DNA of 64,000 nt from contig JACPJE010000055.1 of NCBI GenBank assembly GCA_016187725.1, positions 1 to 64,000 on the forward strand, given 5' to 3'. Positions within the stretch are counted from its first letter, which is position 1. Each line of letters opens with the position of its first letter. Made by a program: the position numbers and the translations under genes. This DNA comes from Candidatus Latescibacterota bacterium (GTDB lineage Bacteria; Latescibacterota; UBA2968; UBA8231). This document shows, in pieces, positions 5,171-28,828 of this stretch. The notes below the pieces were generated by a model. The model was not told the DNA's origin. It made no database searches and saw only the letters and a program-made list of their open reading frames with translations.

Positions 5171-5348
5171 GGTATCTCCCGGGGGGCGGTCGGGCTGGGA
5201 AGTCCGCGTGGTAGCAGGGCCGGGTAGCGGAGCCAGAGCGAGCGAGGGTGAAGGACGCGCCTGGGGAGATACCGGAAGGGCATTCCCGGCCCGATGGCCT
5301 GGGGAAAACCCGGAATGGCATGCAACGCCACAACGTATGTGGCGTTGC
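5171..5348. repeat. Structured intergenic repeat, copy A
   Basis: Inverted arms GGTATCTCCC (5171-5180)/GGGAGATACC (5264-5273) plus hairpin GCAACGCCAC-AACGTAT-GTGGCGTTGC (5322-5348); related to copies B-E. Confidence 0.85.
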
Positions 5349-5393
5349 CCCCAAGGCGGCACAACTACCGCAACCAAAGAGGAGACATCGGGC

Positions 5394-6446
5394 ATGGCCC
5401 ACATCGTCAAAGCCGAATACCTCGAAGATCTGACCGCCGCGATCTTCCAGCACCACGGCACCCCACCCGCTGACGCCCGCACCGTGGCCCGCCTGCTGGT
5501 GGAGGCCGACCTGATGGGCCTGCACTCCCACGGCACCCTGCGGGTGCCCCAGTACGTGGGCGACATCCGCCAGGGCACCATCGTCCCCGGCGCCGAATTG
5601 CGCGTCGCCGAGCAGACCCCCACCGCCATGCTGGTAGACGCCCAGTGGAACTTCGGCCAGGTGGGGGCCACCCGCACCGCCGAGCTGGCCGTGGAGCGGG
5701 CCAGGACCCTGGGGCTGGCCTGCGCCAGCCTGCGCCGCTGCCGCCACGTGGGCCGGGTGGGCGCGTACACCGAACAGGCCGCCGCCAAAGGCTGTGTGGC
5801 CCTGGCTGCCTGCAGCACCGCCGGCGAGGGCCACTGGGTGGCTCCCTTCGGCGGGCGCGAGGGCCGGCTGGGCACCAACCCCCTGGCCTTTGCCGCGCCC
5901 ACCGGCAAGATCCCCATCTCCATGGACTTCGCCACCTCGGCCCTGCCCGAAGGCCGGGTGCGCTTCTACCGCGACACTGAGCAGCCCCTGCCCCCCGACT
6001 CGCTGGTGGACAAGGAAGGCAGACCTACCCTCGATCCCAACGACCTCTACGCCCCGGCGAGAAAAGCGCTGGGCGCCATCCTGCCCTTCGGCGGGCCCCA
6101 AGGGTACAAGGGTTTCGGCCTGGGGCTGATGGCCCAGATCCTCAGCGCCCTGCTGGGGGTGCCGGCCTGGATGGAGGAAGGGCTGGAGGCCAACGGCAAC
6201 AATGTATGGATCCTGGCCATCGACGTGGAGCGCTTCATGACCGCCGACCGCTTCCGCGCCGAGTTAGGAGGGCTGATCGACTATGTAAGATCCTCGGCGC
6301 CAGTGCAGGGGAGCAAAGGAATACTGATGCCGGGCCAGCGCGAATTCGAGCTAATGGAAGCGCGCCGTCGCGAGGGCATCCCCCTCGAAGAAGGGGTCTG
6401 GTCCCAGGTCCGGAAAACCGCCGAAGAGGCGGGGGTGAAGGTCTGA
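5394..6446 (+). CDS. Ldh2-family (malate/L-lactate/sulfolactate dehydrogenase-like) oxidoreductase
   Basis: LMGLHSHGTLRVPQYV, FGGREGRLGTNPLAFAAPT, FGGPQGYKGFGLGLMAQIL. Confidence 0.88.
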   Translation: MAHIVKAEYLEDLTAAIFQHHGTPPADARTVARLLVEADLMGLHSHGTLRVPQYVGDIRQGTIVPGAELRVAEQTPTAMLVDAQWNFGQVGATRTAELAVERARTLGLACASLRRCRHVGRVGAYTEQAAAKGCVALAACSTAGEGHWVAPFGGREGRLGTNPLAFAAPTGKIPISMDFATSALPEGRVRFYRDTEQPLPPDSLVDKEGRPTLDPNDLYAPARKALGAILPFGGPQGYKGFGLGLMAQILSALLGVPAWMEEGLEANGNNVWILAIDVERFMTADRFRAELGGLIDYVRSSAPVQGSKGILMPGQREFELMEARRREGIPLEEGVWSQVRKTAEEAGVKV

Positions 6447-6510
6447 TAGCAAACCAGCAGCCACACAGATCAGGACCAGCTCCGCACCGCGGCGGGGAGA
6501 TGACCCTGAA

Positions 6511-6736
6511 AGCCTTTCCCGGGGGGTGGCCGGGTAGGGAAGTCCGCGTGGTCGGGGGTCGGGTAGCGGAGCCAGAGCGCGCGAGGCGCAACGCCCCAAC
6601 GTATGGGGCGTTGCGGGGGTTGGGTCTTGGGGGAGGGCAGCGCTTTTTGCGCCGCACCCCATACGTTGGGGTGCGGCGGGACGCGCCTTGGGAAAGGCTG
6701 AAATGGCATGCAACGCCCCAACGTATGGGGCGTTGC
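6511..6736. repeat. Structured intergenic repeat, copy B
   Basis: Arms AGCCTTTCCC (6511-6520)/GGGAAAGGCT (6690-6699); hairpins at 6588-6614, 6651-6677 (opposite orientation) and 6710-6736. Confidence 0.88.
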
Positions 6737-6761
6737 CACCGACGCAACCCGCTGGTGCCCC

Positions 6762-8651
6762 CTACCACGGCAGCGCGTAGCTGGGATCGTTGGCGAAGCG
6801 CTCCATGCCCAGCTCCAAGGTCACCCCGGTGCCCGGGGCCAGGCGCACGCAGAAGTGTTTGGCGTTCACCTCCACCACCCGTTCCTCCAGCGCCGCCTCC
6901 ACCCGCTCGCGGTACTGGGTATCCGTCCAATGCGGGCTCAGATCCCCGACGCGGTCCCGGGTCCGGTACTTCACCTGCGTGAAGCGGTGCTCGCCAAAGG
7001 CCCCGCCCTGCACCACCACCTGCCGCTCCTGGCCGGCGCTCAGGTTGACCAGGTGTACCACCGCCCGCCGGTCCTCCAGCTTCTCCACCAAGGCCGCCAC
7101 CTCCGGGGGCAGGCCCGGGCGCCGGGCCTGGGCGTCAAAGTAGCGCAGCCGCACCATCAGCAGGCCACCGTTGTAGTTGAAGAGCGGCCCGCCCATGGTC
7201 AACTGCACCAATCCTTCCACCGTGATGGGGTTGCGCACCTGCAGGTACCAGTCGCCAAAGGTGGAAGGATCCTGGGTGTCGTCGCGCATGAAGGCCAGGC
7301 GTTGGTACACCTGGGCGTGGTTGTGGCGCAGGATCTCCGCCGGGTACTCGGGATATTCCCCCATCAGGTACGCCAGCCAGGGGGCCTCGTGCCCGCCGCT
7401 GTGTTTGGTGAAGAGCGGGATCACCCGCTGGTAGTCGCGGCTCTGGTGGTCGCGGGTGCGGCGGATGCGCTCCAGGTCCTCCTCGGCCATACTCAGGGTC
7501 CACAGGTGGGCCAGGTACCGGGCCGAGAGCGGGGCGTACCCCTCCCACCCGCGGTCGTTGTAGAAATGGGGCACCTGCAGGGTGCCATTCTCCATTCGCC
7601 CCTGCTCGATGAGCCGGTCGAGCTGACCGCGGTAGAAATCGAAATAGCTCCGGTCGCGCCACAGCAGGGCCGCGTTCTCCACCGCGCTCAACGGAGCCTC
7701 TCCCAGGGTGTGCCAGCCGTGGGGCCAGGTCCAGCCATAGTACCCCCCGTACCACTTGCCCTCCATACACTCGCCGATCCGACCGGACAGCCCCACGTTG
7801 TCGGGCAGCAGGCCGCCGTTCTGGCGGGCCCGCTCCATCCAGGCTTCCAGGTACTCGCACACCCAGACCCGGTGTTCCTCCCCGCCGCCGGCCAGGTACG
7901 CGTTGGCCACCAGGCTGGTGGCCGCCAGGTTCACTGCCGCGTCCCCGCGCGCCATGCGCGCCACCAGAGCCGCGCCCATTTTCAACTCATTGGCCGGGTC
8001 GCGCAGATCCTCGACCGTCTGGATGCCGGGGATGTCCAGGTAGGGCAGAGGCCAGGGCTTCCAACCGGAGTACGCGTAGCGGGTGTAATACTTGTCGAAA
8101 TTGCGCCAGGCCGGCCCCATGCTGCCGTTGTGCGGAGAACGGATGAGTCTCTTATCGGGGTCATAGTTGGGCGCCGCCGGGTCATGGCCCAGGAAGAAGC
8201 CGGCGTACCGGCGGGCCCGCTCGGCGTTGCGCTGGTGCTGCGGGTCAGCCAGGCAGAGCAGGTAGAAGAAGACGTACCCCTCGCCCTGGTGCATCCAGTC
8301 GTACCCCTGCTCGTACTCCTTGACCACCATGGGGTGGCCGTGGCCCGAGTCGTACCCGGCGAACTGCCGGGTGATGGCCTCCCACTCCCGGTGGGTGTGC
8401 TCCAGAAAACTGGCATCCCCTCCCAACAGGTAAAAGAGCGGCCAGTTGTGGAAACTCTCGTACGCGTCGTCCAGGCCGTCGATGCTGGAAAAATCCTCGG
8501 TGGTGGGCCACAGGATGGTCCCGTCCGGGCGCACGTACTTCTCCAGCAGTGGGGCAGCGGACTGGTTCATCAGGGCGATCAGGCTGCGCTCCAGCACCGC
8601 CCATTCGGGCGGGTGGATGAAGGGGGCGTTGGCTTCGATCTCGGTCATCAT
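6762..8651 (-). CDS. Uncharacterised large protein (629 aa), possibly an alpha/alpha-toroid carbohydrate-active protein
   Basis: Long ORF with good coding composition, many aromatic-rich helices (FHNWPLFYLLGGD, YGWTWPHGWHTLGEA); no decisive family motif recognised. Confidence 0.6.
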   Translation of the reverse strand: MMTEIEANAPFIHPPEWAVLERSLIALMNQSAAPLLEKYVRPDGTILWPTTEDFSSIDGLDDAYESFHNWPLFYLLGGDASFLEHTHREWEAITRQFAGYDSGHGHPMVVKEYEQGYDWMHQGEGYVFFYLLCLADPQHQRNAERARRYAGFFLGHDPAAPNYDPDKRLIRSPHNGSMGPAWRNFDKYYTRYAYSGWKPWPLPYLDIPGIQTVEDLRDPANELKMGAALVARMARGDAAVNLAATSLVANAYLAGGGEEHRVWVCEYLEAWMERARQNGGLLPDNVGLSGRIGECMEGKWYGGYYGWTWPHGWHTLGEAPLSAVENAALLWRDRSYFDFYRGQLDRLIEQGRMENGTLQVPHFYNDRGWEGYAPLSARYLAHLWTLSMAEEDLERIRRTRDHQSRDYQRVIPLFTKHSGGHEAPWLAYLMGEYPEYPAEILRHNHAQVYQRLAFMRDDTQDPSTFGDWYLQVRNPITVEGLVQLTMGGPLFNYNGGLLMVRLRYFDAQARRPGLPPEVAALVEKLEDRRAVVHLVNLSAGQERQVVVQGGAFGEHRFTQVKYRTRDRVGDLSPHWTDTQYRERVEAALEERVVEVNAKHFCVRLAPGTGVTLELGMERFANDPSYALPW

Positions 8652-8769
8652 GGTTTAATAATCTCCTTGGGAATACAAATATAGCGTATATTGGGGCTGT
8701 ATCGAGAGGTTGAGCAGTGGACGCAGGGCATCCTTCGCATTGAGGGATGACACCAAAAGGAGGTCTCCA

Positions 8770-8904
8770 GTGGGAGACACTGGCAAGAAGGACAAGGACA
8801 AGCGGCGCAAACAGCAGATCCTGAAAAAAGAGAAACAGCAAAAAGAAAAGCAGGACAGGCAATCGAGCAGCTCCATGTCCCCGCTGCTGAGGGGGAGGAA
8901 GTAA
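8770..8904 (+). CDS. Small Lys/Gln-rich protein (44 aa)
   Basis: GTG start preceded by AAAGGAGG; MGDTGKKDKDKRRKQQILKKEKQQKEKQDRQSSSSMSPLLRGRK. Confidence 0.5.
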   Translation: MGDTGKKDKDKRRKQQILKKEKQQKEKQDRQSSSSMSPLLRGRK

Positions 8905-8908
8905 GCGC

Positions 8909-9820
8909 CTATTGACGCGCAGTTGTCGAAAGCCGCAAGCGCGGAGGTGGCGCACATTCGATGACCACCTCGTGCCCAGTGCGGGGATGGCGGAAACGCA
9001 ACTCGGCAGCATGCAGGTAATAGCCGGGATCGCCGGGTACTGCTTGCGAATCTGGTGCGGGCAGCCCTCCCACTCCATAGAGCGGGTCGCCCACCAGCGG
9101 GTGTCCTGCCGCGGCCAGATGGATGCGGATCTGGTGCGGCCGGCCCGTCTCGATGCGCACATCGCAGAGGAAGGAATCTGCGCGGCCTTCGAGAACCCTC
9201 ACCTGGGATAAAGCGGGCTTGCCCCCCGGGCTGGCGGCATGGAGTTCGCCCAGCAGGGAGTGGGGCACTGGCCCGATGGGGGCGGCAATCTCCAGCTCAT
9301 CCCATTGGGGGAGTCCGCTGGCCAGGGCCCGGTAGCGTTTGCCGATTGCTTTTTTTGACCACTGCCGCATCAGGGCGATCCGGGCAGGGTGGTTGCGGGC
9401 GCAGAGCACCACACCCGAGGTCCACCGCCCCAAACGGTGTACCGGGGCCGCGTCAGGCGCATAGGCCTGCACCTGATACAGCAGCGTCCCTTGCAGAAAA
9501 TTGGCACCGGGAAGCGTCGGCAGTCCCGCTGGTTTGGCCACGGCGAGCAGGTCTTCGTCCTCGTAGAGCACCGCAAAAGACCTGGGAGCCTCCGGCTCAA
9601 CCCAGGGCGGGCGGTCCCAGACCAGCTCGCTCCCCCGGCGCAAGGCGCTTTCGGCATGTCCGGCCCGCTCGTCGAGGCGCACCAACCCGGCGGTGATCCG
9701 CGCCGTCCACTCTTCGGGGGAGGAATGGGGATAGCGCCGGCTGAGATAACCCAGCAAGGTCTGCCCCTCGGCGTCTGGACCGAGCCGCTCGCGGTACTTG
9801 CAGCCTTCGTTATACGTCAT
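8909..9820 (-). CDS. RluA-family pseudouridine synthase-like protein
   Basis: LYEDEDLLAVAKPAGLPTLPG, APVHRLGRWTSGVVL, ETGRPHQIRIHLAAAGHPLVGDPLYG. Confidence 0.88.
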   Translation of the reverse strand: MTYNEGCKYRERLGPDAEGQTLLGYLSRRYPHSSPEEWTARITAGLVRLDERAGHAESALRRGSELVWDRPPWVEPEAPRSFAVLYEDEDLLAVAKPAGLPTLPGANFLQGTLLYQVQAYAPDAAPVHRLGRWTSGVVLCARNHPARIALMRQWSKKAIGKRYRALASGLPQWDELEIAAPIGPVPHSLLGELHAASPGGKPALSQVRVLEGRADSFLCDVRIETGRPHQIRIHLAAAGHPLVGDPLYGVGGLPAPDSQAVPGDPGYYLHAAELRFRHPRTGHEVVIECAPPPRLRLSTTARQ

Positions 9821-9874
9821 GGCTCCATCTGCAGCCAGAACGCCGCCTCCTTGCCGAGGATCTAGGAGAGCATC

Positions 9875-10222
9875 TCAAAGTGGAAGAAACTGTACCCTGT
9901 CGATCAAGTCCTCTGGTTCTCCGGCCTTGGCGATCAGTTCCAGATCGCGGATACAGGTGCCGATAGAGATGCGCAGCGGATGGGCATAGATCAGGCCGGA
10001 AAAGGCGCGTTTCTGCTCTTGCCTGCTGGCCGCTTCGACCAGCAAGTCATCGTCCTGCGAGAAGAGCACGCGCCCCAAGGCGCCGGCCCGATCCAACAAC
10101 TCTGGATCCTCCATACGGCTTGCACCATTTTCAAAAGCAGTGACCACGTCTATCCCCCTCAAGCGCAGTCCAATCGTGATGGCGCGCGGCACATGGTGGT
10201 CCATGTACAGAGCAACAGCCAT
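9875..10222 (-). CDS. DUF5615-type PIN-like putative toxin
   Basis: LYMDHHVPRAITIGLRLRGIDVVTAFENG...LFSQDDDLL; short gene coupled to a DUF433-like partner. Confidence 0.75.
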   Translation of the reverse strand: MAVALYMDHHVPRAITIGLRLRGIDVVTAFENGASRMEDPELLDRAGALGRVLFSQDDDLLVEAASRQEQKRAFSGLIYAHPLRISIGTCIRDLELIAKAGEPEDLIDRVQFLPL

Positions 10223-10533
10223 CAGCGCAGCCCTTGAGACCTCAGACGAGCCGCAAGAGGCGAAGGCTGCGAGCCCTGCATTTGGTCCACGTACTTTAAC
10301 CGTTGCTCCAGATTCTGTTCCAGTTCTTCCTGGTGATCCCAGTAGTAGGCCAGAGCAGAGTGTATCTGCCCCAGGGACAAGTAGGGGTGTTGGAAGTGTA
10401 ATTCTTCTGGGCTCCAGCCATAGGCGAGCCTTTCGGCGACAAGTTCGATCACCTTCATGGTCGTCCCGGAAATGGTTGGGATACTGTTCTCATCGAGGAC
10501 GACGTGTTCATAACGGGTTTCGACGAAAGACAT
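10222..10533 (-). CDS. DUF433-type putative antitoxin
   Basis: ISGTTMKVIELVAERLAYGWSPEELHFQHPYLSLGQIHSALAYYWDHQEEL; TGATG stop/start overlap with the downstream gene. Confidence 0.78.
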   Translation of the reverse strand: MSFVETRYEHVVLDENSIPTISGTTMKVIELVAERLAYGWSPEELHFQHPYLSLGQIHSALAYYWDHQEELEQNLEQRLKYVDQMQGSQPSPLAARLRSQGLR

Positions 10534-10562
10534 GGCAACACCTCACATTTCGTGAAAGTCAC

Positions 10563-10883
10563 TTATTCATACACAATTGCGTATAAATCCTCCCGTTTCT
10601 TCTCAGAAAGCTCCTTAAACTCCATTAAATACACAAGAGTCGCCCTCAATTCAGAGGTTTCATTCCCACCTTTTCCTTCATACCAATTCATTTCGGACAA
10701 AAACCTTGGCGTCGCCCCTTGGAGGAATCGGGCATGCATGCTTTGGCGCCCATCGTGATCTTCCCGGAACACGCGAAGCAGGGATTCCTGGCGAAGCTGT
10801 GCCTGTTCCTCTTCTACTGCATCGTCCTCGTTGGGCTCGCTGAGAAGCGGACGAAGGTGGCTCTCGAGAAAGTCTGTCGCCAA
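10563..10883 (-). pseudogene. Probable out-of-frame 3' fragment of the upstream helicase gene
   Basis: Begins (no ATG) right where the 1012-aa ORF stops; contains IEELATDFLESHLRPLL and GRQSMHARFLQGATPR, which look like the C-terminal RecA-domain region of such helicases. Confidence 0.45.
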
Positions 10884-10888
10884 TTCCT

Positions 10889-13800
10889 CTATTCGATCAT
10901 GTATGGACTGCTCTGATGCCTAGGCTTCTTGGCACTTTCTCGAACCTGTCGACGGAGCCGCTGATAGCCCTTGTGACTGCCCTGCAACGCTTGCAGCATC
11001 CCGGTGAAATTCGTGTCTGCAAGCCGGCCAACCAATTCCCCCTTCTCCTGTAAATGGCCCATCTGTCTAGCAGCGATGCCCCGCAATTCAGGGTCCGTGT
11101 GTAATGTGTGAGCGACCGGTCGACCAGCATCGGCTGCACGGAGCGCATGACGAATATTGAGCACATCTCGGAGGAGGCCAAGCGGCCTCAAGTACACGCC
11201 GAAGACCAGAACCTTCTCGCGCTGGGATGTCCACTGCTCTATCTCTTTCACAGCAGCGATGATACGAGGGTGTTCGCTGTCGGGGTCGAATTTGACGTCC
11301 GGGAGTTGTTCGGCACCCTCGACGACCCTCTGGCGAGCACCGCGGAGGCGGCGATACCAATAGGCAACGCGTACAATCTTCCCCCGTGTGTGTTCATCGA
11401 CGACGCCGGGATTAGGAACACGGATCACCTCGTTAGTCTCCATGAGATCGACACTCACATGGCCTGCGGAGAGCTTGGTATAGGCATCCCGCACAGCACT
11501 AGGCCAGCCATCGGTGTCCGCTCGCGATAGGCCGCGAGCGCTTTGACTCATAGATTCGGCTGCAAACAACACCTCCAACCAAGCCGAGCCCGAACCCACG
11601 GCCTCTGACCAAGGGATGTTTATTTTCTCGACTCTTCTGTGAGGATGCGGACGTCCATCAGTGATTCCCGTACCGAGCCTGAACTTCTGGATAAGCGGAT
11701 CATCATCGCGCCGACGTCTCGTGACATACGAAGAGAGTGTGTGGGTGAAGTCATCTGCTGCGTCGCAAAGTTCCATGAGCCGAGCATCCTCGTCGGGCGC
11801 AACGCGCGCGCTTCTTGCAGCATCGTGCAGGCACTGAACCACTTCTTTGCTTCGTGCGGGATCAACTCCACAGCCCGCACGCTTGAGCAAATCGAGCCAC
11901 TGAGACAACTCCAACTCCATCGGCGTGGCAGTCAGACAGAGTCGCCGCCCATTCGCCGCCTTCCTCAAGATGGAATCGAGCAGTCGAGGGAGGACTTTTG
12001 TGGGCCCACCTTTAGAATCAGTACCATCTCCGGTTGCACTTTCCCGACTTTTGTGTGCCTCGTCAATTACGATGAGATCAAACTCACCCAACCACAATCC
12101 GAGCAACCCCTCCACCAGTTGCCGCCCGCTCTCCTCTTGGAGTGCCTGAATGAGCAATCTGTTGTTGCCACCCCTACGATAGACTGGTAGTAGAGCGTCA
12201 ATCTGTTTTCGCCACTGCTGACGGTCACGACCACTGAGGCACTCAGAGATCCTCCCCGCGATTTGCTGAATGATTTTGTTGGGATCATCCAGCAGTTTAC
12301 CAATCCTGGTGCGAGCGTCATTTCTGCGAGAGGCTGCCGACAGTTCAGCGCGTACATAAGACGGCAGTGCAACTCGCCATTCGGCAGGACTCCTGCCTTG
12401 GCGCACTTGGGGAGCACGGAAGCCATGCGAGAGGAGCACCCACTCTGGCTTGTCAGGAAGTGGCTCTAATTCAGCCCAGTCTTCTTTCTGCTGAGCCTGT
12501 TTCACAAAATCTGTTTCGGTAGCATCATCCCTAACGCGAAGCACGCTTGGGTCGTCACTACCTTCGAGTGGAATCCTGCCCAGCTCAAGAGCGACAGACT
12601 GCCACCCGTGACCCGCCCAGTTGATACTGACTGTAGCGTTCTTTGGAATGTCCGCGCGCCAGAATAAGCACAAAAACATAGCTGGCTGGGTCTCGATGGA
12701 TGCTGCCAAGATAGGGGGAGCTATGAGGAGGACTGGGGCCTCTGGTGCGTCACCAACTTGCCCCATGTGCCATTCGTCGGTGTCGATCTCCTCGGCCTCG
12801 GGGTTCCAGAACAAGCAGCGTTCAAGTTGCCCGGCATCGAACCGCTCTTCAACGGACATGACGATACCGCACTCGATATTTCCCGTCTTCATCGCCCCCG
12901 ACGTGAGCAAGCCCCGGCGGGAAAGATTGCCCGAACCAAGATACAACCAGCCTTTGCTGGCATAATCGTCGCGCAGGTACCCCACATAGATGAACTTTGC
13001 ATGCAGGCGACGGTGGAACCCCAACGCATCTGAGGGTTGAGCGATCATCCACCCATCCGTATCACCCTTCACTGCCCAGGAAGCAACTGCGCCGGCCTCG
13101 CTCGGTTCGACAAGCACAACTCGTTGCACCTTTGCCGTGAAAACATCGAGTTCTTCTAGTTTGGTGAGTATGGAAGGTTTCCCCGCCCTTTCAGCCGGTG
13201 CTTCATAGAAACCAGATCCGCAGAGAAGCAGGTTTCTCGGCGAATGGATGGATTTCCGTAGCCTCTGACGGATCTGCTCGTACAAGGGTTGCCCTAGGGA
13301 ATGGATGAAACGTGGCCTTCTATTGGAGGGTGCCACACTCTTTGCAGCCTCGCGCAGGGCGTCCAACCGAGCCATAAGCCGGCGTTGTTTGATTGGGAGA
13401 GTCTTCTCGTCGTCGTAAAACCGTTGGTCGATCAGTTGGGCGATGAAGGCACCGGCCGCGGCGACATCAGCGCGATCCTCCGCCGGTGCTGCGGCATCCA
13501 GCGGGACATCAACGGTCCAGACGAGTTCAAGTTGTTTCCTGGCAGAGGTATACGTGTAGTTCGCAGTAAGTACCGCAAGCCGCAAGTGCGCCGGTCCAGC
13601 TGTGCGGTTCGTGGCAAAAGAGAGAAGAGCAAGTTTTGCGTGTAGCAATGAGCCCGGGTCCGAGGCACGAGGTTGCAGTTCATGGAGGCCCGGCACACGT
13701 CCTGGTGGGAGCACGTTCTGTCTTGATCTGGACGCATGACCGTCGAGCATCAGGTACGCCACAACCGTACCAAGTTCTGAGCGCTGCCGGGGACGCAAAC

Positions 13801-13927
13801 CAGTGAAGCGCTGCATGGCAGCTTCTAGGAAATCCTCTGTACCGGTCATTGCTACGAGGGCTGCGCTCTGGCCAACCATTCCCTCGGGGGGATCAAAGAT
13901 CTCGAGAAGCGTTTCAGCACCGTTCAC
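10889..13927 (-). CDS. Tdp1/PLD-like phosphodiesterase domain fused to SF2 (DEAH) helicase-like domain; possibly degenerate
   Basis: Two HxK...N motifs (LLHAKLALLSF...LTANYT; RLHAKFIYVGY...LGSGNLSRRGL...NIECGIV), then FDLIVIDEAHKSRES and RRLCLTATPMELELSQW, EKVLVFGVYLRPLGLL; GTG start overlaps the upstream stop by 4 nt. Confidence 0.75.
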   Translation of the reverse strand: MNGAETLLEIFDPPEGMVGQSAALVAMTGTEDFLEAAMQRFTGLRPRQRSELGTVVAYLMLDGHASRSRQNVLPPGRVPGLHELQPRASDPGSLLHAKLALLSFATNRTAGPAHLRLAVLTANYTYTSARKQLELVWTVDVPLDAAAPAEDRADVAAAGAFIAQLIDQRFYDDEKTLPIKQRRLMARLDALREAAKSVAPSNRRPRFIHSLGQPLYEQIRQRLRKSIHSPRNLLLCGSGFYEAPAERAGKPSILTKLEELDVFTAKVQRVVLVEPSEAGAVASWAVKGDTDGWMIAQPSDALGFHRRLHAKFIYVGYLRDDYASKGWLYLGSGNLSRRGLLTSGAMKTGNIECGIVMSVEERFDAGQLERCLFWNPEAEEIDTDEWHMGQVGDAPEAPVLLIAPPILAASIETQPAMFLCLFWRADIPKNATVSINWAGHGWQSVALELGRIPLEGSDDPSVLRVRDDATETDFVKQAQQKEDWAELEPLPDKPEWVLLSHGFRAPQVRQGRSPAEWRVALPSYVRAELSAASRRNDARTRIGKLLDDPNKIIQQIAGRISECLSGRDRQQWRKQIDALLPVYRRGGNNRLLIQALQEESGRQLVEGLLGLWLGEFDLIVIDEAHKSRESATGDGTDSKGGPTKVLPRLLDSILRKAANGRRLCLTATPMELELSQWLDLLKRAGCGVDPARSKEVVQCLHDAARSARVAPDEDARLMELCDAADDFTHTLSSYVTRRRRDDDPLIQKFRLGTGITDGRPHPHRRVEKINIPWSEAVGSGSAWLEVLFAAESMSQSARGLSRADTDGWPSAVRDAYTKLSAGHVSVDLMETNEVIRVPNPGVVDEHTRGKIVRVAYWYRRLRGARQRVVEGAEQLPDVKFDPDSEHPRIIAAVKEIEQWTSQREKVLVFGVYLRPLGLLRDVLNIRHALRAADAGRPVAHTLHTDPELRGIAARQMGHLQEKGELVGRLADTNFTGMLQALQGSHKGYQRLRRQVRESAKKPRHQSSPYMIE

Positions 13928-15201: not shown

Positions 15202-15268
15202 AGTTTAGCGCTCTGCGCATCCCGCGCGAAAAGGTTCATCAGACAGGAGAAACTCATCTGTATTGAAG

Positions 15269-18301: not shown

Positions 18302-18328
18302 GGCCTGCCCTGCGCCGCAGGACAGGCC
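18302..18328 (-). terminator. Rho-independent terminator of the octaheme cytochrome gene
   Basis: GGCCTGCCCTGCG/CGCAGGACAGGCC hairpin with T-rich tail (TTTCTTTAT) on the minus strand, just after the stop at 18349. Confidence 0.6.
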
Positions 18329-18348
18329 CTGTGCGAGGGGACCCCAGG

Positions 18349-19764: not shown

Positions 19765-19810
19765 ATAGTGCTCCTCGCTAAGGGGTTGTGGATCGCCTCG
19801 CACCTGTGCT

Positions 19811-19826
19811 TGCAAGCAGTGTGCCA
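19811..19826 (-). promoter_or_regulatory. Sigma-54 (RpoN) promoter, -24/-12 element
   Basis: Minus strand TGGCAC-ACTGC-TTGCA, exact match to the TGGCAC-N5-TTGC(A/T) consensus, about 47 nt upstream of the cytochrome ATG. Confidence 0.85.
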
Positions 19827-19885
19827 GGCTCCGCCGCCGGGCCCTGGCTCGCGGTCCATCTCCTTGCCGGCGAAGCAGAAACAAA

Positions 19886-19902
19886 AATCGCGCGGCGCGA
19901 TT
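19886..19902. promoter_or_regulatory. Palindrome AATCGCGC-G-GCGCGATT, candidate enhancer-binding site
   Basis: Perfect 8-bp arms, about 60-75 bp upstream of the sigma-54 -24 element, with a further GCGCGA half-site at 19911. Confidence 0.5.
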
Positions 19903-19974
19903 TCCGCGCAGCGCGACCGGGTGTTGGGTGTTCAAATTTTTTACACCGGACCAGGACGGCGTCCAGATTTTTGA

Positions 19975-21330
19975 CTAGATCAAGCCATACTCTCTGAGCC
20001 GGGTCTGCAGGGTCTGGCGGGAGATGCCCAGGATCCTGGCCGCCTCGGTGCGGTTGCCCCCCGTCTTCTCCAGGGTCTTGAGGATCAGTTCCCTCTCCAC
20101 CTCCCCGAGGGAATGCCCTGCCTGGACCCCGCTCTCCCCTCGCTGGGAGGGCGCCGGCCAGCAGTTCTGCACTGGCCGCGGCAGGCAGTCCACGTCCAGG
20201 TACTCTGCCGGGCACAGGATCACCGCCCGCTCGACGGCGTGCTCCAGTTCCCGCACGTTTCCCGGCCAGTCGTAATGGACCAGCAGGCTCATGGCGCGCG
20301 GCGCGAACCCTCGCAGAGGCCGCTGGTGCTTCTCGGCGTACAGGCGCAGGAAGTGGTCGGCCAACAGGGGGACGTCCTCCCGCCGCTCTTGCAGGGAGGG
20401 CAACTGCAGCGGGACCACGGAAAGGCGGAAATAGAGATCCTCCCGGAAATTCCCCCGCCGCACTGCCTCGTCCAAATCCTGGTTGGTGGCGGCGATGATC
20501 CGCACATCCACCGGGATGGAGCGCTCGCCCCCCAGCCGCTCGATCTGCCGTTCCTGGAGCACCAGCAGGAGCTTGGCCTGGAGCGCCGCGGGCATGTCGC
20601 AGATCTCGTCCAGGAAGAGGGTGCCCTGGCCCGCCTGCTCGAACTTGCCCAGGTGCCGCTGGACCGCCCCGGTGAAGGCGCCCCGCTCGTGGCCGAACAA
20701 CTCGCTCTCCAGCAGGCCGGCGGGGATGGCCGCGCAGTTGACCGTGACCAAGGGGTGTTCCCGGCGCGGGCTGGCATGGTGGAGGGCCTGGGCCACCAGG
20801 CCCTTGCCGGTGCCGCTGGCGCCGGTGATCAGCACCGTGGCGTCGGTGGGCGCCACCAGCGCCATGGTCTCAAACAGCGCGCGCATGGGTTTGCTCTGCC
20901 CGATGAGGCGGCCAAAACCGCCCTGTTCTCCCAGCCGCTCCCGCAGGGCCTGGTTCTCGGCCTTCAGGTGGAAGTGCTCCAGGGTCCGGGAGATGGACAG
21001 CAGCAACTCGTCGGTGTCCAGGGGTTTGGTCAGGTAGTCGTAGGCCCCGATCTTGAGGGTCTGCACCGCGGTGTCCACCGCGGCGTAGGCGGTCATGATC
21101 AGCACCGGCAGGGAGGGGTTGATAGATTTGATCCGCCGCAGGGCCTCCACCCCGTCAAGGCGGGGCATCCTCAGGTCCAGCAACACCAGGTCAAAGGCCT
21201 GGGCCTCGACCTGGCGGACCGCCTCCTCGCCGTCCCCTGCCTCGGCGGTGGTGTACCCCTCGGCAGCCAGGGTGGCGCGGAGCATGGCCCGGTGGGAGGC
21301 ATCGTCGTCGGCGATCAGGATCTTTGACAT
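19975..21330 (-). CDS. Sigma-54-dependent response regulator (NtrC/ZraR type)
   Basis: REC domain (DDD, LLDLRMPRLDG, TKPLD), AAA+ GASGTGKG, GAFTGA loop, C-terminal Fis-type HTH. Confidence 0.93.
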   Translation of the reverse strand: MSKILIADDDASHRAMLRATLAAEGYTTAEAGDGEEAVRQVEAQAFDLVLLDLRMPRLDGVEALRRIKSINPSLPVLIMTAYAAVDTAVQTLKIGAYDYLTKPLDTDELLLSISRTLEHFHLKAENQALRERLGEQGGFGRLIGQSKPMRALFETMALVAPTDATVLITGASGTGKGLVAQALHHASPRREHPLVTVNCAAIPAGLLESELFGHERGAFTGAVQRHLGKFEQAGQGTLFLDEICDMPAALQAKLLLVLQERQIERLGGERSIPVDVRIIAATNQDLDEAVRRGNFREDLYFRLSVVPLQLPSLQERREDVPLLADHFLRLYAEKHQRPLRGFAPRAMSLLVHYDWPGNVRELEHAVERAVILCPAEYLDVDCLPRPVQNCWPAPSQRGESGVQAGHSLGEVERELILKTLEKTGGNRTEAARILGISRQTLQTRLREYGLI

Positions 21331-21331
21331 C

Positions 21332-22579
21332 TCAGGCTTCGAGCGGCAGTTCGACGCGGAAGGTGGTCCCTGCTCCCGGACGGCTCTCCAGGCGGATCTG
21401 GCCGCGGTGGCCCTGGACAATGCTGTGGACAATGGCCAGCCCCAGGCCGGTCCCTCCCTGCTTGGTGGTGAAGAAAGGGTCGAAGACCCGCATCCGGTCC
21501 TGGTCCCCGATGCCACTGCCGGTGTCGGCAACGCTCAGCTCGACCTGCTCCCCGATGCGGCGCATGCCCAGTGCCAGCTCCCCTCCTTTGTCCATGGCCT
21601 CCACTCCGTTGCGGATCAGGTTGACCAGCACCTGGACCAGCATGTCCCGGTCCACCGGAACCCTGGGCAGGCCAGCCTCCAGGTCGCGGTGCAGGGCGAT
21701 GGCTTTCTCCTGGATCTCGGGCTGACACAGCAGGAGCGCGTGCTCCACCACCTCGGCCAGGTCCACCGGGGCGCGCTGCGGCAGCGCCGGTTGCGCAAAG
21801 CTCAGCAGGTCGGTGATCACCCGGTTGAGGCGGTCCACCTCCCGCACCAGCAGCTCGGCGTACTCCCCGTCCTCGGTGGAGCCGCGGTACTTGCGCTGGA
21901 AAAAGCGGGCAAAACCCCTGATCGAACTGAGGGGATTGCGCAGCTCGTGGGCCACGCCGGCCACCATCCTCCCCATGCTGGCCAACCGCTCCGAGCGCTG
22001 GAGCTGATCCTCCAGGTCGCGCAGTTCCCGCAGGTCGCGCAGCACGATCACCGCGCCCAGCGCCTCGCCCTCGCCGTCGCGCAATTGGGAGGCGCTGACG
22101 CTGACCTCCACCTTCTTGCCGCTGAGGGAAACGCAACTCATCTCCTTCTCCAGGAGCCGCTCCCCCCGCTCGATGGTCGGCTCCAGACGGCAGTCCCCCT
22201 GGGCCACCAGTTCGTAGTAATAACGCCCCCCTGCCTGCGCCGCGCTTACCCCCAGCAGGTCGCAGGCCACCCCGTTGATGGAGATCAGCCGGCCCTGACG
22301 GTCCACGGAGATGACGCCGTTGGAGATGCTCTCCACCACGTGCTGGGCATAACTCTGAGCCTGCCCGAGCGCCTGATTGGCAGCGCGCAACTGGCGGGAG
22401 GCCAAGAGCAGGTAAAGCGCCGTTCCCCCCAGCAGCAGGATCACCGCGCTGGTGCCCACCACCATCGCCTGTTCGCGCTGGTGATGGGTATAGGCATAAT
22501 AGCCCTGCAAGACCATCAGCAGCGCGACCGCGGCGATGATCCACAGGGCAAGGGCTGCGCCTCTGTTTGAGCCTGGCAT
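21332..22579 (-). CDS. Membrane PAS sensor histidine kinase (partner of the downstream response regulator)
   Basis: TM segments, PAS domain, H-box VAGVAHELRNPLSSIRGFARF, N box NLIRNGVEAM, DTGSGI, TGLGLAIVHSIVQGHRG. Confidence 0.92.
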   Translation of the reverse strand: MPGSNRGAALALWIIAAVALLMVLQGYYAYTHHQREQAMVVGTSAVILLLGGTALYLLLASRQLRAANQALGQAQSYAQHVVESISNGVISVDRQGRLISINGVACDLLGVSAAQAGGRYYYELVAQGDCRLEPTIERGERLLEKEMSCVSLSGKKVEVSVSASQLRDGEGEALGAVIVLRDLRELRDLEDQLQRSERLASMGRMVAGVAHELRNPLSSIRGFARFFQRKYRGSTEDGEYAELLVREVDRLNRVITDLLSFAQPALPQRAPVDLAEVVEHALLLCQPEIQEKAIALHRDLEAGLPRVPVDRDMLVQVLVNLIRNGVEAMDKGGELALGMRRIGEQVELSVADTGSGIGDQDRMRVFDPFFTTKQGGTGLGLAIVHSIVQGHRGQIRLESRPGAGTTFRVELPLEA

Positions 22580-22728
22580 CACTGGGTTTGTGGATGAACT
22601 GGGGTGATGCAAGTAAGTTACTCAGCCGCGCTGGGGCGGGCAATTGCGTGCCTTGCCTCACTTGAAATCCCCGCGCTGATCCTCTATTCTAAGAAAACCC
22701 CCTTTCGGCCTCCAGGAGCGCGCCGGCT

Positions 22729-25680
22729 TTGACCCACCCTCTCACTCCCGAACCGCCCGAGCCCCTGGCCGAGTACCTGGACTATCTCAAGAGCCGGGTC
22801 ATCGGCGACGCCATCGTCCACCACCAGCTCATCCCGCCCCGGCCCGAGCGCCTGGCCGAGGACCAGGGGCAGTTGCCCCCGCGGGTACAGCAGGTGGTGC
22901 GAGCCGCCGGCATCGAGCAGCTCTATTCCCACCAGGCCGAGAGCATCAACCAGATCCTGGCCGGCCGCCACGTGGTGGTCTGCACCCCCACGGCCAGCGG
23001 CAAGACCCTGATCTACAACGCCGCGGTGCTGGCCTCGCTGCTGGAGGACCCCAATGGCCACGCCCTGTACCTCTTTCCGCTCAAGGCCCTGGAGCAGGAC
23101 CAGCTCGACGAGGCCCTGACCCTCATCGACAAACTGGGCGGCCAGTTGCGGGCCGCCGTGTACGACGGCGACACCCCCGACTACCAGCGCAAGAAGATCA
23201 AGGCCGCCCCGCCTCAGCTCTTGATCTCCACCCCGGACATGCTGCACGCCGGCATCCTCGCCTTCCACGAGCAGTGGGCTGCCTTCTTCGCCAAGCTGCG
23301 CTACGTCGTCATCGACGAGCTGCACACCTACAGCGGCATCTTCGGCACCCACGTGCTGCACCTCTTCCGCCGGCTCAACCGGCTCTGCGCCTTCTACGGC
23401 AGCACACCCGTGTACATCACCTGCTCGGCCACCATCGGCAATCCCGAGGAGTTGGCCCGCAACCTGCTCAACCGGCCTTTCCAGGTCATCGCCGAAAGCG
23501 GGGCCCCGGCCGCGGCCCGCCATTTCCTGCTGCTCAACCCCATCGAGAGCCCCAACACCCTGGCTGCCCGCCTGCTGCAACTGAGCGTGGCCCGCGAATT
23601 CCGCACCATCGTCTTCACCCGCGCCCGGCTGATCACCGAATTGATCTACCGCTGGGTCACCCAGAGCCGCCGCGACCTGCGGCAGCTCATCAGCTCCTAC
23701 CGCTCCGGGTACCTGCCCGAGGAGCGCCGCCAGATCGAGGCCGCCCTCTTCAGCGGCGATCTGCTGGGGGTGGTCTCCACCTCGGCCCTGGAGCTGGGCA
23801 TCGACATCGGCGGCCTGGACGTGTGTATCTTGGTGGGTTATCCGGGTTCGGTGGTCAACACCTGGCAGCGGGCCGGGCGGGTGGGCCGCTCGGGTCGCCA
23901 GTCTCTGGTGCTGCTCCTGGCCAGCCAGGACGCCCTGGTCCAGTTCTTCATGAAACACCCGGCCCAATTCTTTGGCCGCGCCCTCGAAGAGGCGGTGGTG
24001 GACCCGGGCAACAAGTACATCCTCAAGGCCCACCTGGCCTGCGCTGCCCAGGAACTGCCCTTGATGGCCGAGGAGCCCGAGTACCAAATGCCCAACTGGC
24101 GCGAGGCCGTGGACGAACTCGTGGCGGAGGGCGGCCTCCTGCAGAGCGCCGAGGGGGGTTCCTGGCACGCCGGCCGCAAGCAGCCCCAGCGCCTGGTGAA
24201 CCTGCGCAGCATCGGCGAGTCGTGGACCCTGTACGAAAAGGAGAGCCGCGCCCTCATCGGCACCATCAGCGGCGGCCAACTCTATTCCGAGTGTTATCCG
24301 GGGGCCATCTACCTGCACCGGGGCAAGCAATTCCTCATCACCAGCCACGATCCCCAGCGCCGGCACATCTGCGCCGAGGAGGTGGAGGCCGCGTACTACA
24401 CCCGGCCCAAGACCGAGAAGGAGACCGAGGTGCTGGCTGAATTGCGCTCCCGGCCCCTGGCCAACTGCCTGGCCAAGCTGGGCCGGCTCAAGGTGAGTTC
24501 CCAGGTGGTGGGTTTCGAGAAGGTGCGGGTGGGCGACCAGGTGGTGCTCTCCCAGCACCCATTGGAGGCGCCGGTGGAACACTTCGAGACCATCGGTTTC
24601 TGGCTGGAGCTGGAGACCCCCTTCAAGAAGGAGTTGCGGCGGCGCGGCTTCCACCACATGGGCTCCATGCACGCGGTGGAGCACGCCATGAAATCCCTCT
24701 TCCCGCTGCTGGCGCTGAGCAACCGCACGGACGTGGGCGGCATCTGCTACCCGCTCCACCCGCAGTTGCGCAAGGGGGCCATCTTCGTGTACGACTACCA
24801 CCCCGGCGGCATCGGCCTGGCCGAAAAGGGCTACGCCCTGCTGGACCGGCTGCTGGAAATGACCCTCGAACTGATTGAAGGATGTGACTGCGAAGGGGGC
24901 TGTCCCTCCTGCATCCACTTTCCCACCTGCGGGGCGGGCAATGTGCCCCTGGACAAGGCCGGGGCCATCTATCTCCTGCACCTGCTCACCGGCCGCCAGC
25001 AACTGCCCATAGGCAGCGGGCCCGACTCGCCGGTGGAGGAAGAACCGCCCATCTTCGCCGGCTGGGAGGAGGAGGAAGCGCCGCCCGCTGAGCCCGAGAA
25101 ACCCCGTGGCCCCCACGTGGTGGTCTTCGACCTGGAGACCATGCGCAGCGCCGCCGAGGTGGGCGGCTGGGACAAGGCCCAGCTGATGGGCATGTCCGTG
25201 GGCGTGGTGTGGGACAGCTGGTTGGGGGAATGCCAGAGCTATTTCGCCGACCAGGCCGAGGCCCTGGTCGAGCATCTGCGCCGGGCCGAACTGGTGGTGG
25301 GCTTCAACATCGCCGGCTTCGACTACCGGGTGCTGGCCGGGTACAGCCCCTTCGATTTCAGCCAGCTCAACACCCTCGATATCCTGCAGGAGGTCTACGG
25401 CCGGCTCAAACACCGGGTCAGCCTCGACGCCCTGATCCGCGCCACCCTCAACCGCGCCAAGACCGCCGACGGGCTGCAGGCCCTCCAGTGGTACAAGGAG
25501 AGCCGGCTCGACCTGATCGAGGAGTACTGCCGCAAGGACGTGGAAGCCACCCGCGACCTCTTCCAGTATGGGCTGGACCAGGGTTACCTGCTCTTCGACC
25601 GCAAGGACCAGGCCCGCCTGCGCGTACCGACCGAATGGAACCTCGAAGAACTCGCGGCGCGGAAAAAGAAGGCCCCGTAA
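22729..25680 (+). CDS. MrfA/YprA-type SF2 helicase with zinc-binding DUF1998-like region, fused to MrfB/YprB-type DEDDy exonuclease
   Basis: TPTASGKTLIY, VVIDELHTY, CSATIGNP, QRAGRVGRSGR, CDCEGGCPSCIHFPTC; C-terminal VVFDLET, VVGFNIAGFDYRVL, YCRKDVEATRDL. Confidence 0.88.
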   Translation: MTHPLTPEPPEPLAEYLDYLKSRVIGDAIVHHQLIPPRPERLAEDQGQLPPRVQQVVRAAGIEQLYSHQAESINQILAGRHVVVCTPTASGKTLIYNAAVLASLLEDPNGHALYLFPLKALEQDQLDEALTLIDKLGGQLRAAVYDGDTPDYQRKKIKAAPPQLLISTPDMLHAGILAFHEQWAAFFAKLRYVVIDELHTYSGIFGTHVLHLFRRLNRLCAFYGSTPVYITCSATIGNPEELARNLLNRPFQVIAESGAPAAARHFLLLNPIESPNTLAARLLQLSVAREFRTIVFTRARLITELIYRWVTQSRRDLRQLISSYRSGYLPEERRQIEAALFSGDLLGVVSTSALELGIDIGGLDVCILVGYPGSVVNTWQRAGRVGRSGRQSLVLLLASQDALVQFFMKHPAQFFGRALEEAVVDPGNKYILKAHLACAAQELPLMAEEPEYQMPNWREAVDELVAEGGLLQSAEGGSWHAGRKQPQRLVNLRSIGESWTLYEKESRALIGTISGGQLYSECYPGAIYLHRGKQFLITSHDPQRRHICAEEVEAAYYTRPKTEKETEVLAELRSRPLANCLAKLGRLKVSSQVVGFEKVRVGDQVVLSQHPLEAPVEHFETIGFWLELETPFKKELRRRGFHHMGSMHAVEHAMKSLFPLLALSNRTDVGGICYPLHPQLRKGAIFVYDYHPGGIGLAEKGYALLDRLLEMTLELIEGCDCEGGCPSCIHFPTCGAGNVPLDKAGAIYLLHLLTGRQQLPIGSGPDSPVEEEPPIFAGWEEEEAPPAEPEKPRGPHVVVFDLETMRSAAEVGGWDKAQLMGMSVGVVWDSWLGECQSYFADQAEALVEHLRRAELVVGFNIAGFDYRVLAGYSPFDFSQLNTLDILQEVYGRLKHRVSLDALIRATLNRAKTADGLQALQWYKESRLDLIEEYCRKDVEATRDLFQYGLDQGYLLFDRKDQARLRVPTEWNLEELAARKKKAP

Positions 25681-25692
25681 ACAGACAGCGGC

Positions 25693-25790
25693 GGGGCCAG
25701 CGAGCGGTAGCGAGCGAGGGAGAAGGACGCGCCTTGAGAAAGGCTGGAGTGGGTCGCTCCCCGACGCCCCCGGCGCCCACTGCCCTCAGG
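25693..25790. repeat. Structured intergenic repeat, truncated copy C (right arm only)
   Basis: GGACGCGCCTTGAGAAAGGCTGGAGTGGGTCGCTCCCCGACGC matches the right end of copies B/D. Confidence 0.65.
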
Positions 25791-26247
25791 AGTTGAAATT
25801 CTCCAGCAGCTCCACCGCCACCGCCAGCTCGTGTTCGCTGCTCAGGTAGGTGTAGCGCCCGCCCGTATAATCCCCCTGCTGCACCACCGGAATCCCCCTG
25901 GCCGCCAGTTCGCTGGTCACTTGGTCCGTGCCCTTGACCCGCAGCGCCAGGTGGTGCACCCCCTCGCCCTTCTGCTCCAGAAAATCCCTCCAGGTGCTCG
26001 GACCGCCGATGGGCTCGATCAGCTCCAGGCTCAATTGTTCCCCCATCTTGAAGAAGGCCAGCTTGGCGCGCGCCTCGGTGGGGGCGCCCTGGTATCGGGT
26101 GTGGGCCTCGGACTGGGGCGCGGTGGTGATGATGGCCGGCACCTCCACCCCGAAGAGGGCGGCGTATTTCTTCGCCGAAGCCTCGATATCGCGCACCACC
26201 AGCCCCACCTGGCAGATGACATTGGAACCGAAATAGTTTTTGCCCAT
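25786..26247 (-). CDS. VOC-family (glyoxalase/methylmalonyl-CoA epimerase-like) protein
   Basis: QVGLVVRDIEASAKKYAALFGVEV, LELIEPIGG, GVHHLALRV. Confidence 0.85.
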   Translation of the reverse strand: MGKNYFGSNVICQVGLVVRDIEASAKKYAALFGVEVPAIITTAPQSEAHTRYQGAPTEARAKLAFFKMGEQLSLELIEPIGGPSTWRDFLEQKGEGVHHLALRVKGTDQVTSELAARGIPVVQQGDYTGGRYTYLSSEHELAVAVELLENFNS

Positions 26248-26315
26248 GGCCTCTTCCTCTGTCTTGAGTGTATGCCCTATATTTACCAGCTAATAATAGG
26301 CGAAAGGAAGGTCCG

Positions 26316-27284
26316 ATGAAAGTCAGAGCAGCGCGATTGGTGGCCCCGAGGAAATGGCAGCTCGTCGAAGAGGAGAAACCGCAACCCAGACCCGGCAACA
26401 TGCTGGTGCGCATCCAGCAGGTGGCCATCTGCGGCAGCGACAAGCCCTCCTTCTGCGGTTTCCACGATTCCTATCCCCTGCCCACCGGTAGCACCGGGCA
26501 CGAGGGCCTGGGGGGGGTGGAGGCCTGTCCTTCGGGGACCTACAAAGAAGGGGAGCGGGTGTTGCTCTCCGGCTTCGACCGGGGCCTCTTCCAGGAATAC
26601 GTGCTGGCCGAGGACCACGGCGTGGTGCGCCTGCCCCAGGACTTCGCCCCCGAGGTGGTGCTGATGAGCCAGTTGCTGGGCACGGTCATCCACAGCTTCT
26701 ACAAGCTGGGCAACCTGATCAACCAGCGGGTGGTGGTGATCGGCCAGGGTGCCGTGGGCCTGCTCTTCGACGCGGTGCTGCGCAACCTGGGCGCCCGCCA
26801 GATCATCGGGGTGGACCTGTTGGATTACCGGCTGGAACTGGGCCGCAAGCTGGGCGCCACCCACACCATCAATCCCCAGAAGCAGCCCCTGGCCGAAACC
26901 GTGGCGCAAATCACCGAGGGAGAGCTGGCCGACCTGGTGGTGGAGGCTGTAGGGGAGGAGGAAACCCTCAACCAGATCCACCTACTGGCGCGGCGCAACG
27001 CCTCGGTGATCTGCTTCGGGGTGCCGGACAAGGCCGGCCACGAGGGGCAGGTCTCCCTGGGCTTCATGGACATGTTCCGCAAGGAGCTGCGCCTGATCAC
27101 TTCGGTGGGCCCGGAGCCGTGGAAGGATTACACCATCGCCCGGGACTGGATCGTGCAGGGCCGGCTGGACCTGAGCCCCGTCGTCAGCCACGTGCGCCCC
27201 TTCGAGACCATCCAGGAATCCTTCGAGATGGCCTTCGACTACCCGGAGCGGGACAAGGTGGTAAAGATCGTGCTGGCGTTCTGA
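26316..27284 (+). CDS. Medium-chain zinc-type alcohol dehydrogenase
   Basis: AICGSDKPSF, GHEGLG, VVIGQGAVGLLFDAVLRNLGARQIIGVD. Confidence 0.87.
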   Translation: MKVRAARLVAPRKWQLVEEEKPQPRPGNMLVRIQQVAICGSDKPSFCGFHDSYPLPTGSTGHEGLGGVEACPSGTYKEGERVLLSGFDRGLFQEYVLAEDHGVVRLPQDFAPEVVLMSQLLGTVIHSFYKLGNLINQRVVVIGQGAVGLLFDAVLRNLGARQIIGVDLLDYRLELGRKLGATHTINPQKQPLAETVAQITEGELADLVVEAVGEEETLNQIHLLARRNASVICFGVPDKAGHEGQVSLGFMDMFRKELRLITSVGPEPWKDYTIARDWIVQGRLDLSPVVSHVRPFETIQESFEMAFDYPERDKVVKIVLAF

Positions 27285-27312
27285 ATACGAGCGGCGGGGA
27301 GATGACCCTGTA

Positions 27313-27502
27313 GGTTTTTCTCGGGGAGTGGTTGGGTAGGGAAGACCGCGTGGCGGGTGGGTCGGGTAGCAGAGCGGCAGCGAGCGAGGCGCAACGCCCC
27401 AACGTATGGGGCGTTGCGGGGGAAGGGTCTTGGGGGAGGGCAGCGCTTTTTGCGCCGCACCCCATACGTTGGGGTGCGGCGGGACGCGCCTTGAGAAAAA
27501 CC
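27313..27502. repeat. Structured intergenic repeat, copy D
   Basis: Arms GGTTTTTCTC (27313-27322)/GAGAAAAACC (27493-27502); hairpins at 27391-27417 and 27454-27480. Confidence 0.88.
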
Positions 27503-27531
27503 GAAATGGGTCGCTCCCCGACGCGCACCGC

Positions 27532-28623
27532 TCACGTCTCGTACTCGTCCACCAGCAGCCCGCGTTTTTCCCGTTTCTTGCCCCCATTCTTGCGCGTGGC
27601 CCGCTCGGCCAGACGGGCCTTCTGCTCCTGTCGGCGCGACAGCTTCTCCAGTTCGCGTTTCAGCTTGTGGTAGCTCTCCAGCCGGCCCGCCTCCAGCCTT
27701 CCCCGCTCCACCGCACCGCGCACCGCGCAGCCCGGCTCCCGCTGGTGCCGGCAATCGCCAAAGCGGCAGCGGGCCGCCAGCTCCTCCACGTCCACAAACC
27801 CCTCGCTCAGGTCTTCCTCGTCCGCCCATAGCTGCAGCTCGCGCATGCCCGGCGTATCCACGATCAGGCCGCCCTGGTCCAGCAGCACCAACTCGCGGTG
27901 GGAGGTGGTGTGCCGGCCCCGGCCGTCGTCCTCCCGCACTGCAGTGACCTTCAGCCGCTGCTCCCCCAGCAGGCTGTTGGTCAGCGTGGACTTGCCCACC
28001 CCCGAGGACCCCACCACCGCCACGGTCCGGCCCGCGCTCAGATAGGGAGAGAGCGCTTCGAGCCCCTGCCGTGCCAGGGCGCTGATCGCGTGCACCGGAA
28101 CCCCGAAGGCAATGCCCTCCACCTGGGCCACCCGCTCCTCCACCTCCGGGCACTGGTCGGCCTTGTTGAGCACGATGACCGGATCGGCCCCGCTGTCCCA
28201 GGCCAGGGTGAGGTAGCGCTCCAGCCGGCGCAGGTTGAAATCCCCGTCCAGGCCGTTGACCAGGAAGAGGGTATCGATATTGGCGGCGATGATCTGCTCA
28301 TCTATTTCACCCCCACTGCGGCGTTCGCGCCCACCTGCAGCCTTTCGGGCAACCCGGCTCTTGCGCGGCAGCAGGGCGTGGATAGTGGCCTTGTCCTCCT
28401 CGCGGGGCCTCACCCCCACCCAGTCCCCCACCGCGGGAAACTCGGCCGGCGAACGGGCCGTGTGCCGCCACTTGCCCGGCACCTCGGCCGTCAATTCACC
28501 ACTGGTGCTGTACACCAGGTACAGATCGCGGTGCTGGCAGGCCACCCGGGCCGGCAGCAGGCCCGCATGAGCTTCAAAGTGCTGCGCAAAAAAGGGGTCC
28601 CACCCCAGGTTGTTCAGATCCAT
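27532..28623 (-). CDS. rsgA: Ribosome small-subunit-dependent GTPase RsgA
   Basis: Circularly permuted GTPase: NKAD before GSSGVGKSTLTNSL, DTPGMREL, then C-x-H-x-C zinc region CRFGDCRHQREPGC. Confidence 0.93.
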   Translation of the reverse strand: MDLNNLGWDPFFAQHFEAHAGLLPARVACQHRDLYLVYSTSGELTAEVPGKWRHTARSPAEFPAVGDWVGVRPREEDKATIHALLPRKSRVARKAAGGRERRSGGEIDEQIIAANIDTLFLVNGLDGDFNLRRLERYLTLAWDSGADPVIVLNKADQCPEVEERVAQVEGIAFGVPVHAISALARQGLEALSPYLSAGRTVAVVGSSGVGKSTLTNSLLGEQRLKVTAVREDDGRGRHTTSHRELVLLDQGGLIVDTPGMRELQLWADEEDLSEGFVDVEELAARCRFGDCRHQREPGCAVRGAVERGRLEAGRLESYHKLKRELEKLSRRQEQKARLAERATRKNGGKKREKRGLLVDEYET

Positions 28624-28725
28624 TTCCGTTCGGGGGAATAGAGTACGAGGCGACGCGCAACCACGCGCCCCATTATACCCCAGAACGGATGCACTGGCGT
28701 GAAGCGACGGAGAGAAGGCCCTGAA

Positions 28726-28828
28726 GGTTTTTCTCGGGGAGTGGCCGGGGAGGGAAGGACGCGGGATGGGCGGAGGGGAGAGCGGAGCGCAGCGAGCAGG
28801 GTGGGAAGTCCGCGCCTGGAGAAAAACC
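28726..28828. repeat. Structured intergenic repeat, copy E (short form)
   Basis: Arms GGTTTTTCTC (28726-28735)/GAGAAAAACC (28819-28828); shares flanks with copies A/D. Confidence 0.8.

Follow-up and report, generated by a model that had tools for sequence, protein, structure and literature searches.

The repeats found in a stretch of 64,000 nucleotides of Latescibacterota DNA (hereafter the window, part of a 5.56-Mb MAG of 292 contigs) are rather likely to represent a genus-specific, non-autonomous mobile palindromic element that is functionally REPIN/ERIC/Correia-like. A mobile element is favored over a host regulatory RNA by turnover-prone, polymorphic sites, a near-random orientation to genes and the restriction to a single genus. 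The initial annotation had offered three explanations, namely a structured RNA, a REP/MITE-like element and a bidirectional terminator. As the occupied sites are polymorphic between species, the REP/MITE-like mobile element fits best. This strongly covarying family of an uncultivated phylum has apparently not been described before. In agreement with the earlier remark that no named family was recognized, Rfam (15) returned no match in the window at the gathering score, and a relaxed threshold yielded chance-level matches only.

Copies in the window and architecture of the repeat unit

Copies were assembled by pairing left and right ends in a sample of 120 stretches from five genomes (2.1 Mb in total), which resulted in 162 copies. 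The four pairs of complementary 10-mers reported for the window were all present at their positions (Table 1). Their pairing is not due to chance, since the 162 copies share an identical layout and the double-sided changes in the 78 aligned copies were reached in 0 of 500 shuffles. Some details had to be revised. The 10-mers do not form the outer stem but a helix (P2) inside an outer helix P1, and copy C, which was thought to retain the right end alone, carries an internal deletion and has also kept part of the left end.

Table 1. Repeat copies and guest hairpins in the 64-kb window.
Feature	Position	Strand	10-mer arms (P2)	Description
Copy A	5152-5292	+	5171-5180/5264-5273	short form; covariance model match 5151-5292, 121.3 bits; arms read directly
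Solitary guest hairpin beside copy A	5322-5348	+		GCAACGCCACA-ACGTA-TGTGGCGTTGC
Copy B	6489-6745	+	6511-6520/6690-6699	long form with central hairpin cassette; covariance model match to left part
Guest cassette in copy B	6587-6678	+		two perfect hairpins arranged in inverted order (loops ACGTA and TACGT), as in a REPIN
Third hairpin in copy B	6710-6736			interrupts the right outer arm
Copy C	25689-25767	+		internal deletion; retains 9 nt of the left end, the inner hairpin and the whole right end; HMM match of right end 25726-25766
Copy D	27291-27524	+	27313-27322/27493-27502	long form (central cassette); flanked by convergent genes; covariance model match 27290-27524, 128.4 bits
Guest cassette in copy D	27390-27481	+		layout as in copy B
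Copy E	28704-28850	+	28726-28735/28819-28828	short form; covariance model match 28703-28850, 128.7 bits

The core unit of approximately 148 nt consists of the nested helices P1 (outer, 18 nt), P2 and P3 on one strand. Most copies start with GCGGCGGGGAGATGACCC and end with GGGTCGCTCCCCGACGC, the two arms of P1, which are followed by the 10-mers of P2 and by the short GUCC/GGAC helix P3. The innermost motif GCGGAGC-N3-5-GCGAGCG is highly invariant. The unit terminates in GCGG...ACGC, and 5′-TA-3′ ends are not present. The outer stem of copy A belongs to another sequence type that is still paired (GGGTCGGGAGTGCC/GGGCATTCCCGGCCC, with GGTATCTCCC/GGGAGATACC as P2). Copy E represents a subtype in which the P3 letters are swapped, with GGAC/GUCC (GTCC in DNA) instead of GUCC/GGAC. 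A further subtype, CCTTTACTGGGG ... GGCAGACTCGGGA-TCGGGAAAGG, was observed at L200:3464-3589 and L168:7598-7723; P1 and P2 are common to it and the interior is different. Conserved G-runs (GGGGAGTGG-NN-GGG-NN-GGG) are located between P2 and P3 in alignment columns 39–58 and, judged by their sequence, could form a G-quadruplex.

The spacing between left and right ends of the 162 copies clusters at 43–44 nt, corresponding to the core of approximately 148 nt, and at two larger values, about 94 nt and about 130 nt. The greater length of copies B and D is due to a central cassette of two extra hairpins. Such a guest cassette, composed of two perfect hairpins in inverted order, occupies the center of many copies. 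It resembles a REPIN in being an inverted hairpin pair, here nested inside a larger hairpin. Scanning the 2.1 Mb for hairpins of at least 9 bp revealed the loops ACGTA/TACGT in 78 of 140 hairpins with 5-nt loops, and ATAG/CTAT in 26 of 81 with 4-nt loops. The guest hairpins comprise 23 arm-and-loop types, whose loops are invariant and whose many different arm sequences are perfectly paired. They mostly reside in or beside the larger element, and some stand alone.

The family is confined to one genus

As proposed initially, the copies in the window are members of one dispersed family, with about 50–115 recognized copies in each sampled species. A covariance model derived from 78 short copies detected at least 113, 96, 48 (G002), 113 and 104 (G004) copies in the five species sampled from one Latescibacterota genus (MAG completeness 84–97%), with up to 150 candidates scored per genome. 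The same model found no copy in 15 relatives from the family or class, a DNA search found none in 55 further relatives, and the viral contigs searched for the repeat gave no match. The right-end motif occurs in MAGs carrying the names Candidatus Latescibacterota or Handelsmanbacteria, sampled from Lake Baikal and other waters, and in a record set titled Gemmatimonas phototrophica. The latter (L031, L035 and other CAMAVQ01 loci) is probably a mislabelled record of a MAG from the genus of the Latescibacterota MAGs. A Rhizobiaceae MAG and a Pseudomonas genome accounted for two stray exact matches, which the covariance model rejected as family members.

Placement at gene ends and turnover of sites

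According to a purpose-made gene caller, 159 of 162 copies are intergenic. Among 156 copies, 54 lie between convergent, 81 between tandem and 21 between divergent genes. Convergent gaps are thus enriched for copies (54/156 copies versus 128/918 gaps >30 bp). Within the window, the location between convergent genes that had been noted for several copies holds for B, C and D, whereas A and E are flanked by tandem genes. The median distance from stop codon to copy is 13 nt, and 66 of 80 copies in tandem gaps are closer to the upstream stop. Orientation in tandem gaps is weakly biased and near random (47 sense versus 34 antisense). Most simply, the placement after stop codons is what selection leaves. 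Insertion directly after a stop codon is probably tolerated, which would account for the enrichment at convergent junctions.

Comparison of orthologous junctions in the fetched stretches revealed about 20 empty sites and 18 co-occupied site pairs, 15 in the same and 3 in opposite orientation. Of the window sites, B has no element in G001 and G002, where the two stop codons overlap (TGATCA), and a reversed one in G003. At site D, G003 lacks an element (again TGATCA), G001 has a reversed one and G002 a remnant in reverse orientation. The occupant of site C is reversed in G003 and belongs to another subtype in G001, and site E is filled in G001 with unchanged orientation. An element seems to have been lost from at least two of the empty sites, because the same sites are filled in fetched outgroup species. 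Some junctions were re-occupied more often than predicted from copy number. Flanking direct repeats of 2–5 nt, indicative of target-site duplication, were not enriched; extended inverted flanks gave no general signal, with longer paired flanks in a few copies. Since target duplication is missing and inserts are flanked by 6–40 nt of additional non-element DNA, a clean insertion event was not observed. Where copy A lies in the window (5136-5393; L249, L253), G001 and G002 carry an additional gene of approximately 1 kb, which reads like a zinc-dependent dehydrogenase, and G003 has a 31-bp gap.

The proximity to stop codons, the over-representation in convergent gaps and the bias towards the upstream stop in tandem gaps might reflect host selection for a cis-acting RNA at gene 3′ ends, either a terminator (factor-dependent or bidirectional) or a hairpin that stabilizes mRNA or is processed by RNase III. 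The very stable fold, with a z-score of −6.6 for the copy D RNA, would suit such a function, and REPs show a similar placement by gene 3′ ends (PMC3733652). The orientation to genes, however, is near random, even though good folding is confined to the plus strand. Moreover, orthologous junctions are often empty or reverse-occupied, and TTTT occurs within 20 nt of the plus-strand end in 3 of 162 copies. We therefore regard a host-selected cis-acting RNA as unlikely. Of the options named initially, a structured RNA acting in cis loses support from the near-random orientation and from occupants of the same junction that face opposite ways, and an intrinsic bidirectional terminator is left unsupported by the scarcity of T-runs.

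Compensatory changes preserve a strand-specific fold

In the alignment of 78 copies, 24 of 30 pairs have changed on both sides, which exceeds shuffled controls (0/500) and substantiates the compensatory covariation first noticed in the window. Standard pairing is found in 96.7% of the cells across the 30 pairs (0/500 shuffles), and cells with changes on both sides number 137 compared to 23 in shuffles (0/500). When the partners were slid by 1–3 columns, pairing fell to 34–58%. Parsimony on a tree calculated from non-stem columns only required 130 double changes, compared to 25–35 with shuffled 3′ letters, so the covariation signal is not due to a few founders.

In pairs that are predominantly of the Watson-Crick type, G-U outnumbers A-C (134 versus 59 cells, which are not independent of each other), and 16 pairs lean towards G-U while 4 lean towards A-C. 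One-step changes between the closest copy pairs produced 12 G-U, 2 A-C and 5 other mismatches; on the tree, the ratio of G-U to A-C was 53:24. In addition, folding of the plus strand is favored over that of its complement in 78/78 copies, by a mean of 17.6 kcal/mol. Both the G-U excess and the advantage of the plus strand demonstrate that the fold of one strand matters, and they argue against a strand-blind process. Together with the covariation, they support the initial proposal that a folded form is preserved, and specify it as a folded single strand.

Alternatively, the covariation could largely originate from DNA processes that replace both arms, such as template switching or recombination and conversion between copies, and not from selection on the fold. 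Within P2, one-sided intermediates are rarer than double changes (for example, columns 36–127: CG 65, UA 11, UG 1, CA 1), and copies sharing a junction often resemble each other no more than they resemble random family members. Template switching has been described for RNA hairpins (PMC8794818). Such processes should not favor G-U over A-C, however, and isolated pairs, for example 27–136, covary too. As the main source of the covariation they are quite unlikely, because they leave the G-U excess unexplained. Given the surplus of double changes in P2, part of the covariation probably stems from template switching or from recombination between copies.

Search for the mover

Genes for the RAYT/Y1 transposase, whose presence in the genome had been suggested as a check, were found in G000, G001 and G003, and no PF01797 match was obtained in the incomplete MAGs of G002 and G004. 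RAYT/IS200 was rejected as the mover, since Y1 is missing from the latter two species despite their numerous copies. Another candidate, reverse transcriptase, is present in G000 only of the five species. An autonomous long version with both ends around a gene was not found in the 2.1 Mb, nor was a cognate transposase or cleavage site of the IS200/IS605 type. In comparison with IS200/IS605, a strand-specific fold was seen and target duplication was not. Only one element lies near a Y1 gene, and it was interrupted by an inserted IS200: at L262:1355-2007 (G003), an IS200-type copy (Y1 ORF 1381-1989, minus strand) is located inside the left arm. Related IS200 copies elsewhere in G003 are 92–94% identical. 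At L091:1039-3263 (G000), a Y1-transposase-like protein of 255 aa adjoins a DNA methylase-like gene, with no family element nearby.

We consider it very unlikely that the repeats are self-spreading RNA genes with transcription of their own, that is, hundreds of fold-selected plus-strand RNAs that re-insert via an RNA or single-strand copy and target convergent junctions in either orientation. Also very unlikely is a structured RNA that is transcribed on its own and either acts in trans or is reverse-transcribed and re-inserted in a SINE-like manner: although a fold specific to one strand, the missing orientation bias relative to genes and the highly invariant inner motif would fit, four of the five species are devoid of reverse transcriptase, there is no promoter evidence and hundreds of copies are atypical of a regulatory RNA.

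Relation to known repeat families

REPs are intergenic, within 20 bp of gene 3′ ends, and occur in convergent gaps; for REPIN spacers, compensatory changes have been reported and the hairpin has been considered as single-stranded DNA or RNA (PMC3116915, PMC3733652). The present family resembles REPINs and the GTAG/CGTC REP families in consisting of high-copy intergenic palindromes near 3′ ends and in convergent gaps that undergo compensatory changes. Unlike REPs (20–40 nt), it has a core of approximately 148 nt and a strand-specific fold. No RAYT gene stands beside the copies, in contrast to REPs and REPINs, and two carrier species are without Y1 transposase. While the GTAG or CGTC tag of REPs stands at one end by a 5–13 bp stem, the GTAG present in 58 of 78 copies is internal, 5′ of a weak inner hairpin. 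The inverted-pair layout of REPINs is found in the guest cassette only and not in the main unit.

ERIC elements have long forms with an internal insertion. Long forms of this kind are also known for Correia elements (PMC2229807). With ERIC and Correia/NEMIS MITEs (PMC2229807) the family shares a length of 100–200 bp, an imperfect palindrome, an intergenic location, filled and empty sites, the coexistence of short forms with long ones bearing an internal insertion, and the lack of a recognizable mover. It differs from them by the absence of TA ends and target-site duplication, by being GC-rich and by terminal arms that vary between copies, and no sequence similarity to them was noted. Terminal inverted repeats, by which bacterial MITEs are recognized, are present, as the P1 arms are paired in 95.8% of the cells (78 copies), whereas target duplication and TA termini are missing. 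The family is therefore set apart from REPs by transposase and size, and from ERIC/Correia-type MITEs by target duplication and TA ends. The stem-loop sequence families described in 40 bacterial genomes (PMC2267715) are likewise repeated, structured and intergenic and were found genome by genome; they come from other phyla, none from Latescibacterota.

Model and implications

The strand specificity of the fold suggests that the life cycle of the mobile element includes a folded single strand. The element may spread, or be recognized, in the form of a single plus strand that is folded. This strand would most likely be single-stranded DNA, as for REPs and IS200/IS605, which we prefer over RNA; an RNA intermediate could take its place. 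Only copies whose arms still pair would propagate, which would give rise to compensatory changes and to the tolerance of G-U (G-T) pairs.

The family illustrates that small hairpin elements nest in one another and re-occupy gene junctions both ways without a recognizable transposase. Five related species with many copies, subtypes and polymorphic sites offer a system in which the origin of compensatory changes in repeats can be tested. There, selection on a folded strand, a copying step and recombination could be told apart as origins.
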